Part shown: piece after piece, positions 8,173-14,714 of the stretch
Layout: each line of letters starts with the position of its first letter
Numbering within the stretch: the first letter of the stretch is position 1
Assembly: GCA_029859645.1 (NCBI GenBank)
Contig: JAOUCS010000002.1
Coordinates: forward strand, 1 to 64,000
Direction: 5' to 3'
DNA from: Lysobacterales bacterium
GTDB lineage: Bacteria > Pseudomonadota > Gammaproteobacteria > Xanthomonadales > SZUA-36
Length of the DNA stretch: 64,000 bases
Notes under the pieces: model-generated
Database searches by the model: none
Told to the model about the DNA's origin: nothing
What the model saw: only the letters and a program-made list of their open reading frames with translations
Made by a program: the position numbers and the translations under genes

Positions 8173-9825
<1,653 letters not shown>

Positions 9826-9858
9826 TCAAAATTGCAAATTCGTTGATCGGGAGGCCGT

Positions 9859-10149
9859 TCAGCCCTCGATGATGGCCATGATGTCGTCTTCGCGCATGAC
9901 GAGCAGTTCCTCGCCATCCACTTTGACTTCAGTGCCTGAATATTTACCAAACAGCACGGTGTCACCGGTTTTTACATCCAGCCCACGCTGATCACCATTG
10001 TCGAGCACCTTGCCATTACCTACAGCCAGGATTTCGCCACGGATTGGCTTCTCTGCCGCATTGTCGGGAATCACGATTCCCCCGGCGGACATTTTTTCTT
10101 CCTCGACGCGTTTTACGATAACGCGGTCATGCAAAGGACGAAGTTTCAT
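9859..10149 (-). CDS. groS: 10 kDa co-chaperonin GroES
   Basis: 96 residues starting [19 protein letters not shown]. It forms the heptameric lid of the GroEL chamber. The mobile loop (about residues 16-32, [19 protein letters not shown]) is visible, as is the C-terminal core ending DIMAIIEG. An upstream in-frame TTG would add five residues, but GGGAGA just before the ATG at 10149 and the family N-terminus decide for the shorter form. It is the first gene of the operon, with a leader of about 110 bases below the sigma-32 type promoter. Confidence 0.97.
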
Positions 10150-10293: not shown

Positions 10294-10361
10294 GGATGGG
10301 GCGATAATGTTCAATAAATAGTCAGGGGGCGCACCGGGCATCATGTAGAATTCGCGCACCG

Positions 10362-12710
10362 ATGTCCTCTTCCGCCATCCAACTCAACGACCCCCAAAAG
10401 GCGGCCGTTCTGCACATGAAAAGCCCCTTGCTGGTCGTGGCCGGCGCCGGTAGCGGCAAGACCCGGGTCATCATCGAAAAAATCGTGCACCTGGTGAGGG
10501 ATCGCGGGCTGCCTGGTGCACGCATCGCTGCGATTACATTTACCAACAAGGCCGCACGGGAGATGAAAGAACGGCTGGCGAGACGCCTGGGCAAAGAAAA
10601 GGCGGCCGAAATCACCGTTTCCACTTTTCATTCCCTGGGTTGGAAAATCCTCAGGTCACACCACGAAGAGCTTGGATATCGCCCCGGTATCAGCATCCTG
10701 GATGAAACGGACAGCCAGACCGTGGTTCGGGATTTGCTGCCGGAAGGCACGGCACCGGACAGTGTCAAGCTGGCCCGCGCTCAGGTATCCCGCTGGAAAA
10801 ACCAGGCATTGGGTTCGGTGGACATCGATTGCGCTGCCGGCAGCGGCGGTGAGCAGGCAATCTGGAGTCTCTACCAGCGGTACGAAGAACACCTGAAAAA
10901 TCTGAATGCTGTCGATTTCGACGATCTCATCCTGCAGCCATTGCGCGCCCTTCAGCAGCAGGAGATTCGCCTGAAATGGCAGCAGGAAATCCGCTACCTG
11001 CTGGTCGACGAGTACCAGGACACCAACGAAACCCAGTACCAGATGCTGCGCCTGCTAGCCGGGGACGAAGGCCGCCTGACCGCGGTGGGCGACGATGATC
11101 AATCGATCTATGGCTGGCGGGGTGCGCAACCGGAGAATCTGCAGCAACTGGCCAAGGACTATCCGCAGCTCGAAATCATCAAGCTGGAACAGAATTACCG
11201 GTCCTGCGGAACGGTTCTGAAGGCGGCCAATGCGCTGATCGCCAACAACCCGCGCAACATCGAGAAACGGCTTTGGAGTCGGTTACACGAAGGTGAGGCA
11301 ATTCGGGTCATCCCTTGTGAAAACGAGCTTGAGGAAGCCGGCATGATCGCTGCCGAGATCCTGCACCGCCAGTATACTAACCACGTCGGCTGGGGTGATT
11401 TCGCGGTGCTGTACCGCGGCAATCACCAGTCCCGGGTGCTGGAGCAAGCTCTGCGCGAGCAGCGGATACCCTATCACCTTTCCGGCGGCACTTCGTTTTT
11501 CGAGCGGACCGAAATCAAGGACCTGATGTGTTATTTGCGCCTGGCGGTCAACCCCGATGACAACACCGCCTTCATGCGCATCGTCAATACGCCGAGGCGT
11601 GACATCGGGGTGATGTCACGGAGCATCATTGCACAGCTCGCCGGGCGCAGGCACATCAGCCTGTTCGCAGCGGCGCAGCGATCGGCTTGCCGGGAAGCAC
11701 TGAAGCCACGCAGTGCCGACAGCCTTCGGGCATTCTGCAAACTGATCATCGCGACAGGCGACCGGGGAGAGCGTTCCGATCCGGTCGAAGCCGCCCGCCA
11801 CCTGGTTAAAGCCATCAACTATGAACACTGGGTTCGTGATCAGACCGATAATCCGGTGCTGGCCGAGCGCAGGATGGAAAACGTCCGGGAACTGCTGGCC
11901 TGGCTGTCGCGCCTGCGAGAAGAGAGTTCGGACCAGGGCCTGATTGACCTGATGGGAAGGTTATCCCTGTTGACCAGTCTCGACCGGGACAAGGAGCCGG
12001 GCCAGGAAGTGCGATTGATGACCCTGCATGGCTCCAAGGGCCTGGAGTTTCCCCACGTGTTCGTGGCGGGGGTGGAAGAGGAACTGTTGCCGCATCGCAA
12101 CAGTATCGAGGAAAAAGGCGAACAGGAAGAACGGCGCCTGATGTACGTCGGCCTCACTCGGGCCAGGCAGTCGCTGACGCTGAGTTTTGCAAAGCAGCGG
12201 AGACGGTACGGTGAGGTTGTTGGCTGTGATCCCTCGCGGTTCCTGCAGGAGTTACCGCAGGAACTGGTGGAGTGGCAGGGAGAAGACCAGGAAATCGACC
12301 ATGAAAAGGCCAGGGAACGGGTTTCCAGTCATCTCGATAGACTGAGGGATATGTTTGGCTGTTTCCTGCTGACGTGCCTTATTGGATTCAACGCTGAGCT
12401 CTCAGCAGATGTTCCGGCTTCACAGAGAGCCGAGGTCGATCACCTGATTCGTTATCTTGAAACCAGTGATTGTGAAATGGTCCGCAACGGCAAATCATAT
12501 TCAGGTGAAGACGGCGTGCAGCATGTCAGGCGCAAATATGATTATTTCAGGAAAAAAATCTCGAGCACCGAAGAATTTATCAGCTACTCGGCAAGCAAGA
12601 GCACGATGAGTGGAAAACCCTATACCATTCAATGCCCGGGAGCTGATCCGGTAGCCAGTTCAGAGTGGTTGCTGCAGGAGCTTGCGGCATTCCGTGGCCG
12701 GCAGAACTGA
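10362..12710 (+). CDS. rep: ATP-dependent DNA helicase Rep fused to a C-terminal DUF5329 domain
   Basis: 782 residues, about 110 more than usual Rep. Residues 1-663 are a complete UvrD/Rep superfamily 1 helicase (3'-5' DNA unwinding at replication forks): Walker A GAGSGKT, DEYQDTN (Walker B), GDDDQSIYGWRGA, LEQNYRS, the late TLHGSKGLEFPHVF and GLTRARQSL. The helicase ends as Rep does (QGEDQEIDHEKARERVSSHLDRLRD). Without a stop codon the frame enters a hydrophobic stretch starting M664 (ATG at 12351), MFGCFLLTCLIGFNAELSA, which looks like a signal peptide. It is followed by a DUF5329-like domain (EVDHLIRYLETSDCEMVRNG, SSTEEFISYSASKSTMSG, SEWLLQELAAFRG). The last 119 residues are the size of a free DUF5329 protein. 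This is either a true fusion or a recent loss of the rep stop codon. The start ATG has no clear ribosome site. It is divergent from groES. Confidence 0.9.
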   Translation: MSSSAIQLNDPQKAAVLHMKSPLLVVAGAGSGKTRVIIEKIVHLVRDRGLPGARIAAITFTNKAAREMKERLARRLGKEKAAEITVSTFHSLGWKILRSHHEELGYRPGISILDETDSQTVVRDLLPEGTAPDSVKLARAQVSRWKNQALGSVDIDCAAGSGGEQAIWSLYQRYEEHLKNLNAVDFDDLILQPLRALQQQEIRLKWQQEIRYLLVDEYQDTNETQYQMLRLLAGDEGRLTAVGDDDQSIYGWRGAQPENLQQLAKDYPQLEIIKLEQNYRSCGTVLKAANALIANNPRNIEKRLWSRLHEGEAIRVIPCENELEEAGMIAAEILHRQYTNHVGWGDFAVLYRGNHQSRVLEQALREQRIPYHLSGGTSFFERTEIKDLMCYLRLAVNPDDNTAFMRIVNTPRRDIGVMSRSIIAQLAGRRHISLFAAAQRSACREALKPRSADSLRAFCKLIIATGDRGERSDPVEAARHLVKAINYEHWVRDQTDNPVLAERRMENVRELLAWLSRLREESSDQGLIDLMGRLSLLTSLDRDKEPGQEVRLMTLHGSKGLEFPHVFVAGVEEELLPHRNSIEEKGEQEERRLMYVGLTRARQSLTLSFAKQRRRYGEVVGCDPSRFLQELPQELVEWQGEDQEIDHEKARERVSSHLDRLRDMFGCFLLTCLIGFNAELSADVPASQRAEVDHLIRYLETSDCEMVRNGKSYSGEDGVQHVRRKYDYFRKKISSTEEFISYSASKSTMSGKPYTIQCPGADPVASSEWLLQELAAFRGRQN

Positions 12711-12734: not shown

Positions 12735-13259
12735 CTACAGATAGGGGGCGTCATCAGGGTCGTTCTCGGTCTCGACGCTGGCGCTGGGGGGTAGCTTGGC
12801 CATTTCCTGCCGCAGCATCTCGACGTGTTCGGACTCCTCGTCCCTGAGCTCAGCGAACAGTGTTCTGACTTCAGAGTCGGTGATTCCCGGCAAGGCCCCG
12901 TCGTAAAAATCGTAGGCCTTCTGCTCAGCGAGAAGTCCAACCTCGAACGCCTGGACCGTTGACATGCCGCGGCGCGGCGCTCCCGTTTCCGGGGCCTCGA
13001 CATCGTAGAGGTCGTCCAGTTTCAGCTTCATGGGGGTCTTGCCAAACAGTTCCATGCGTCGCTCGAGCAGCTCGGTTCCGTGCTTGGCCTCGTTCTCGGC
13101 CATCGAGGCGAAGAAAGCTCCCGCATCATATCGGCTGCCGCTGCGTCCGAGCTGAGAGGCGAACAATTTGTAGCGCTGGTGCGCTTCCTCCTCGATCAGA
13201 ATCGCGAGATCAAGGGCATCCATAAGGCTGAGCTTGGAAAGGTCAAGACTGGTAGACAT
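12735..13259 (-). CDS. Ferritin-like / rubrerythrin-type diiron protein
   Basis: 174 residues forming a helical ferritin-like fold. Metal-binding style motifs are EEEAHQRYKLFA near the N-terminus, AENEAKHGTELLERR, then EVGLLAEQKAYDFYDGAL and LRDEESEHVEMLRQE, giving the paired E...ExxH pattern of diiron four-helix bundles. It lacks the C-terminal rubredoxin domain of true rubrerythrins. Likely role is iron or peroxide handling in the cytosol, by family analogy. It lies 24 bases beyond the end of the rep fusion gene, convergent with it. Upstream, on the same strand, is the DksA-like gene, 124 bases away. Confidence 0.85.
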   Translation of the reverse strand: MSTSLDLSKLSLMDALDLAILIEEEAHQRYKLFASQLGRSGSRYDAGAFFASMAENEAKHGTELLERRMELFGKTPMKLKLDDLYDVEAPETGAPRRGMSTVQAFEVGLLAEQKAYDFYDGALPGITDSEVRTLFAELRDEESEHVEMLRQEMAKLPPSASVETENDPDDAPYL

Positions 13260-13797: not shown

Positions 13798-14286
13798 ATG
13801 AGCAGAAAATTCAATAAATGGGTCAAGGCGTACCAGGACCAGGCGTGGACTCTGGCCCGTTACCTGCTCAAGGACCCGGCGGAAGCCGAGGACGCCTGCC
13901 AGGAGGCTTTTGTGAAGCTTTGGAAAAACCAGGACTCGATTGATCCGGACAAGGTAAAACCCTGGCTGATGAAGGTCACCCGCAACGGCTGCCTGGACCG
14001 CTTGCGACGCAGGCACCCAACCGAGGAACTGCAGGAATGGCACGAACCAAACACCGTCGCCGGTCCGATGCAGGGAATGCACCAGACCGAGCTGGGATCG
14101 TGGTTGAGAAACACCATCAACAACCTTAAGGAGCCGTACCGCTCCCTGGTGGTGCTCAGGGACGTACACCAGCACAGCTATGAAGAGGTCGCAGCGGTGC
14201 TCGAATTGAACATGCCGCAGGTAAAAACATACCTGCACAGGGCAAGAAAACAGTTGCGTGAGCAACTGGCCGAGGTAAGACCATGA
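13798..14286 (+). CDS. RNA polymerase ECF-type sigma factor
   Basis: 162 residues. Region 2 (WVKAYQDQAWTLARYLLKDP, EDACQEAFVKLWKN, KPWLMKVTRNGCLDRLRRR) and region 4 (LKEPYRSLVVLRDVHQHSYE, EVAAVLELNMPQVKTYLHRA) are both clear, with a short linker and no region 1 or 3, as in group 4 sigma factors. It directs RNA polymerase to a small stress or envelope regulon. The stop overlaps the next gene's start (ATGA, 14283-14286), so the sigma factor and the putative anti-sigma are translationally coupled. A self-type promoter lies at 13761-13785. Confidence 0.92.
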   Translation: MSRKFNKWVKAYQDQAWTLARYLLKDPAEAEDACQEAFVKLWKNQDSIDPDKVKPWLMKVTRNGCLDRLRRRHPTEELQEWHEPNTVAGPMQGMHQTELGSWLRNTINNLKEPYRSLVVLRDVHQHSYEEVAAVLELNMPQVKTYLHRARKQLREQLAEVRP

Positions 14287-14714
14287 ACAGAGATGACAAA
14301 TCATTGGACGCGCAAATGGAGCACCTGCTGAACCAGCTGGAAATCGAGAAAGCGCCGGCCAGCCTGACGCGCCGTTTGCGACAGATTCCGCGGGAACACC
14401 CCGAGCACAAACCACGGCTGCCGTGGTTGTTTCCAGGTCCCTTGCCAAAGTGGGCGATGGCCCCGGCATTAGCAGCGGTGCCTTTGATCCTGGTAGCTGT
14501 AGTGATGATGCAGCCGCGCCAACCGTCACCGGCGCAAGTTGAACAGGCGCGACAGGACCTGGCCGTCGCGTTCGCCTACCTCGACAAGGCAGGTCTGCGA
14601 ACGGGAAACCGCATTCAATCCATTCTCGGTAGCGAGTTGCGTCACAGCGTCAAGGACCCGCTATCCGAACATATTCCATTCACTGAACAATCTTTACAGG
14701 AGGAAAACTCGTGA
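14283..14714 (+). CDS. Putative membrane anti-sigma factor
   Basis: 143 residues, starting MNRDDKSLDAQMEHLLNQLE. An acidic or helical cytosolic N-terminus (1-55) is followed by one transmembrane segment (about 58-79, WAMAPALAAVPLILVAVVMM) and a periplasmic tail of about 60 residues. This topology and its position directly after, and overlapping, an ECF sigma gene suggest it holds the sigma factor at the membrane. No ZAS zinc motif (HxxxCxxC) is present, so it belongs to no well-known anti-sigma class that I can name. It ends overlapping the GTG start of the next gene. Confidence 0.65.
   Translation: MNRDDKSLDAQMEHLLNQLEIEKAPASLTRRLRQIPREHPEHKPRLPWLFPGPLPKWAMAPALAAVPLILVAVVMMQPRQPSPAQVEQARQDLAVAFAYLDKAGLRTGNRIQSILGSELRHSVKDPLSEHIPFTEQSLQEENS

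Follow-up and report, generated by a model that had tools for sequence, protein, structure and literature searches.

The locus described here raises the question of whether the Rep DNA helicase, a cytosolic enzyme, and DUF5329, usually an exported protein, are truly joined in one protein and, if so, how two genes became one. In the window, by which we mean the whole 64,000-nucleotide stretch of DNA analysed, which comes from an uncultured relative of Xanthomonas, the plus-strand frame at 10362-12710 is open over 782 codons and encodes Rep and DUF5329 with no stop codon between them.

A single frame for Rep and DUF5329

The frame comprises the following main segments:

10362..12359, + strand: Rep DNA helicase portion, residues 1-666, SF1A UvrD/Rep family, ending ...LDRLRDMFG (TIGR01074; identities to G003 and G009)
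12408..12707, + strand: mature DUF5329 domain, residues 683-782, with the Pfam match at 12420-12695 (PF17263; AlphaFold2)
12708..12710, + strand: TGA stop codon closing the fused frame (sequence)

Pfam matches to UvrD-helicase (residues 8-268), UvrD_C (273-611) and DUF5329 (687-778) all lie in the single 782-residue protein. The DUF5329 match scored 104.7 bits within the fusion and 109.3 bits alone, passing the PF17263 gathering cut-off of 27 bits. The NCBIfam model for Rep, TIGR01074, matched residues 7-664 over model positions 1-666 of 668 and thus over its full length, with 858.5 bits. This is below the model's curated NCBI cut-off of 951.45, and the Rep assignment is therefore by best match rather than as a certified equivalog. 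The same protein scored 638 bits with the PcrA model and 548 with the UvrD model, placing Rep ahead by 220 and 310 bits, respectively. Based on the nearly complete coverage of TIGR01074 and its distance from PcrA and UvrD, the Rep portion is complete. The motifs GAGSGKT (Walker A), DEYQDTN, GDDDQSIYGWRGA and VGLTRA are legible in it, and it is 88% identical to the N-terminal part and 81% to the C-terminal part of the rep product of G003, and 76% identical to that of G009. The two nearly invariant cysteines of DUF5329 are likewise present, as C41 and C95 in the numbering of the domain segment, corresponding to residues 704 and 758 of the fused protein (alignment A1). The first-pass annotation, which proposed that a complete Rep and a complete DUF5329 are joined in frame, was thus correct on this point.

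Each gene occurs in one copy, with no second rep or DUF5329 in the genome; the next Rep-like match there is a 725-codon frame, 39% identical, that we took as UvrD. AlphaFold2 modelled both domains as folded, with pLDDT values below 50 for linker residues 661-682; the model of the DUF5329 segment (residues 664-782) had a mean pLDDT of 89.7. The DUF5329 fold had no convincing match in the PDB (best Foldseek E 0.56) and no solved relative by sequence, and a search of the literature library used here returned no paper on DUF5329.

At the rep start codon, ATG 10362, there is practically no Shine-Dalgarno sequence in 10340-10361 (duplex of 0.2 kcal/mol). To judge from these nucleotides, rep initiation may be leaderless or may occur from another start.

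The locus in related genomes

Two conserved flanks allowed the locus to be compared among genomes:

8173..10149, - strand: groEL and groES, conserved left flank (synteny table)
13798..14714, + strand: ECF sigma factor gene and the following gene (putative anti-sigma), conserved right flank (synteny tables)

In G009, which belongs to another genus of the same family, the syntenic position is occupied by rep ending in TGA, a 20-nt gap and a separate DUF5329 gene, with groESL to the left and the ECF-sigma operon to the right as in the window. This DUF5329 gene starts with ATG and encodes a 24-residue signal peptide, MTLTRTGFATLILTVLFFGVSALA, followed by DVPAGQR. The sister of the window genome is G003 (support of 0.998 in a small tree of two flanking proteins), in which rep has its own stop codon and no DUF5329 follows; the contig breaks on the rep side. 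The expectation of separate genes in relatives was thereby borne out. The first-pass annotation had held that relatives with a stop codon ahead of DUF5329 would speak against the fusion. Such relatives exist, but they mark the fusion as derived rather than disproving it.

In G003, a gene for a short-chain dehydrogenase (SDR; L113:6299-7261, - strand) lies 76 nt past rep, in the place expected for DUF5329, and its product has an apparent Sec signal peptide, MKFSIHYVLVLLVTFLFTATPHHVIA.

The remaining species of the genus differ again. Between the same flanks, G004 has kept DUF5329 without rep, G002 has neither gene, and in G001 a rep remnant of 99 codons is left, with DUF5329 absent. Some of the relatives' assemblies are incomplete; the losses in G001, G002 and G004 are seen between intact flanks. 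The comparison points to an unstable locus: each of the four further species in the genus is missing rep, DUF5329 or both here. The two genes are dispensable in the genus, and a fusion of them would therefore be tolerable.

The remnant in G001 (L049:1275-1574) is an intact frame in which rep residues 204-267 are joined to the rep C-terminal end (...LDKLREMFS) by a large internal deletion. The window has a rubrerythrin-like gene at 12735-13259 (- strand), between the fusion and a DksA/TraR-type gene; no such gene was detected at the corresponding position in G001-G004 or G009.

The junction and the lost stop codon

Codon-by-codon comparison and alignment defined two features at the joint:

12360..12362, + strand: TGT (Cys667), site of the stop loss, aligned with the TGA of G003 rep (codon-by-codon comparison)
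12360..12407, + strand: DUF5329 signal-peptide remnant that retains the hydrophobic core and the presumed cleavage site but lacks the original start codon and the charged head (hydropathy; alignment to the signal peptides of free DUF5329 proteins)

The rep gene of G003 ends CTC GAC AAG CTA AGG GAC ATG TTC GGC TGA, and the window reads CTC GAT AGA CTG AGG GAT ATG TTT GGC TGT TTC CTG CTG at the same place. Because the G003 frame ends ...LDKLRDMFG-TGA, residues M664, F665 and G666 of the window protein are Rep's own last residues. This alignment places the true junction between G666 and C667, at 12359/12360. The suspected loss of the rep stop codon is confirmed by the TGA of G003 standing opposite the window's TGT. 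M664, encoded by ATG 12351 and previously taken as the natural gene boundary and the DUF5329 start, is instead a Rep codon that is conserved in G003. Similarly, the 119 residues counted from it, which had been considered the exact size of a free DUF5329 protein, are a coincidence of the position of Rep's methionine: the signal peptide so obtained would have 19 residues vs 24 in G004 and G009.

Counting from the GGC codon to the first mature residue of DUF5329, an aspartate, G009 has 98 nt and the window 48, so that the junction of the window is 50 nt shorter. The window retains 16 signal-peptide residues, CFLLTCLIGFNAELSA, and from 12360 up to the mature DUF5329 domain there is no canonical start codon in frame. 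A TGA-to-TGT substitution as the sole event was rejected on these grounds, the lack of a DUF5329 start downstream of 12360 and the shortened junction; substitution alone is insufficient because it would leave DUF5329 without its ancestral start.

The fused frame might also be an assembly or consensus error, the real genome having a rep stop and a complete DUF5329 start. The genome is a draft assembly of 255 contigs and the species is represented here by this one genome, both of which favour such an error. However, the artefact would need to be in frame and to cut cleanly at the rep stop, and the junction contains no homopolymer. Misassembly driven by repeats is unlikely since no exact repeat of more than 11 bases was found around the junction within the window and the region is single-copy in the genome. 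Overall, we consider an error improbable. Judged from the alignments, the junction is not a chance arrangement: the nearest relative has its stop at exactly that codon, and among the matches listed no other genome of the order or class showed both domains in one frame.

Rarity of the fusion

No frame besides that of the window combined Rep and DUF5329 among the matches listed, best first, from searches of the order (398 genomes) and the class (369 genomes). Given this sorting, another full fusion would be expected high in the lists. A fusion conserved across relatives was accordingly rejected. Among the loci whose gene order was examined, adjacent rep and DUF5329 genes were seen only in G009. 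A scan of the genome contigs yielded eight DUF5329 loci, at most 58% identical. Of 11 DUF5329 matches with long open frames that were inspected, 10 appear to be spurious extensions upstream in high-GC sequence and one, in G042, is probably a genuine but different fusion. Judged by its sequence, the frame in the window looks like a genuine fusion between two known families, confined to one lineage, and nothing points to a new function.

Selection and composition

In the comparison of the window with G003, the first 599 rep codons gave a pN/pS of 0.116 and the last 109 gave 0.161. Relative to G009, the pN of rep was 0.166 for the window and 0.156 for G003, and that of mature DUF5329 was 0.296 for the window and 0.299 for G004. 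These values weakly suggest that neither half is decaying, with no excess amino-acid change on the window branch; the pN comparison is weak evidence because synonymous sites are near saturation. The third-position GC of the DUF5329 segment (12351-12707) was 0.54, as compared to 0.72 for rep (0.64-0.79 in rep windows of the same size) and likewise higher values in neighbouring genes. In G004 and G009, the third-position GC of DUF5329 was 0.67 and 0.85, respectively. The low value in the window, drawn from 119 codons only, could reflect relaxed selection. The data are compatible either with a recent fusion or with continued selection on the two halves.

Products of the fused frame

The usual stand-alone form of DUF5329, with its own N-terminal signal peptide, is not what the window encodes, although this form is not a Pfam criterion. 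Placed in the middle of a protein, a hydrophobic stretch with the strength of a signal peptide should direct export poorly. One further feature bears on export:

12344..12353, + strand: possible internal DUF5329 start, GAGGG 2 nt ahead of ATG 12351, suboptimal spacing (anti-SD duplex of -6.1 kcal/mol)

Initiation here would yield MFGCFLLTCLIGFNAELSA followed by DVPAS..., that is, a free exported DUF5329 with a 19-residue signal peptide, made beside the fusion protein. This proposal concerns the products made and is therefore compatible with the fusion origin. Indeed, the duplex at ATG 12351 is stronger than those at the DUF5329 starts of G009 (-3.2 kcal/mol) and G004 (-1.9 for ATG, -5.8 for GTG), and the hydrophobic core of the window (KD11 of 2.48) is inside the range of the free relatives. 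However, the spacing of only 2-3 nt is short, and the head of the product, MFG, is uncharged, whereas the N-termini of free DUF5329 proteins (31 further proteins aligned in A1, and others) are signal-peptide-like and nearly all have at least one positive charge in the head. Moreover, G003 has a similar AAGGG-AC-ATG inside rep, where it codes for RDM and starts nothing useful, which argues against the GAGGG being an adaptation. A free product is thus possible, but we hold it to be the less probable outcome.

Alternatively, the signal-peptide core could serve as an internal signal anchor, with Rep cytosolic at the inner membrane and DUF5329 in, or cleaved into, the periplasm. The hydrophobic stretch and the cleavage-like site AELSA-D are kept, with basic residues ahead of them; the DUF5329 domain retains its two cysteines, and the linker is modelled at low confidence between two folded domains. 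Yet the core has just ~10-11 strongly hydrophobic residues, typical of a Sec signal peptide rather than an anchor, an internal signal behind 666 residues would be expected to perform poorly, and no relative shares the arrangement. We therefore regard a membrane-tethered helicase as quite unlikely. Its fullest form, in which a captured signal peptide holds the helicase at the inner membrane with DUF5329 in the periplasm and so couples replication-fork clearance to an envelope protein, is more doubtful still.

Origin and significance

We consider it likely that the frame arose by lineage-specific gene fusion through a short deletion or indel, that its main product is a 782-residue Rep-DUF5329 protein with active Rep and impaired DUF5329 export, and that it is a tolerated accident. 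In the ancestor, rep would have lain close to a gene for a free, exported DUF5329, the pair being flanked by groESL and the ECF-sigma operon. Once the branch to the window genome had separated from G003, a short deletion or indel on it would have removed the rep stop, the spacer, the DUF5329 start and the first signal-peptide residues, joining the frames. The exact ends of the deletion cannot be read from the window and G009, and the immediate ancestor is not among the genomes compared. The main product would be Rep with a C-terminal tail formed by a hydrophobic stretch of ~16 residues and the DUF5329 domain. Rep itself has most likely kept its ATP-driven motor activity as a helicase. Efficient export of DUF5329 has most likely been lost, save for any product of weak internal initiation at ATG 12351. 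The dispensability of both genes in the genus would have allowed the accident to be tolerated. In this account, the open frame, the separate genes of G009, the stop codon of G003, the shorter junction and the recurrent losses are observed, and the deletion mechanism, the localisation and the activity are inferred.

At this locus, the birth of a fused gene from a cytosolic and an exported protein can be traced cleanly: one genus and its neighbour together show the separate arrangement, a sister species that has the stop codon, and several other ways in which the genes were lost. The pattern suggests a one-lineage accident at a locus where both genes are often lost, not a new kind of machine. 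For annotators, it is a caution that a single-lineage fusion is no proof of functional coupling, and it provides a test case of a secretion signal landing midway in a cytosolic enzyme.

Comparison with known systems

The Rep of E. coli (673 aa) is the same complete SF1A helicase, and that of the window is likewise single and accompanied by a UvrD-like helicase. The window protein differs in its 116 additional C-terminal residues and in the lineage's tail, RDMFG vs KRGK in E. coli. The E. coli Rep-DnaB contact lies within the last 33 residues, and N-terminal fluorescent fusions of that Rep were reported to be nearer to wild type than C-terminal fusions (PMC6614839). By analogy, the C-terminal addition could weaken the replisome contact.

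With the free exported DUF5329 proteins of Gammaproteobacteria, the window shares the full-length domain, the invariant RNG, H, K, S and Y, and the two nearly invariant cysteine columns. Nearly every free protein examined has an N-terminal signal peptide of its own, ~20-24 residues long; in the window, Rep stands in front and the head is missing. The protein of G042 (L084:2960-5236, - strand), a probably genuine fusion of Peptidase_S15, PepX_C and DUF5329, resembles that of the window in that DUF5329 forms the C-terminal end of a longer chain. It differs in its partner, apparently an exported hydrolase that has a signal-peptide-like N-terminus of its own and is joined to DUF5329 through a proline-rich linker; the DUF5329 domain there would thus stay outside the cytosol.
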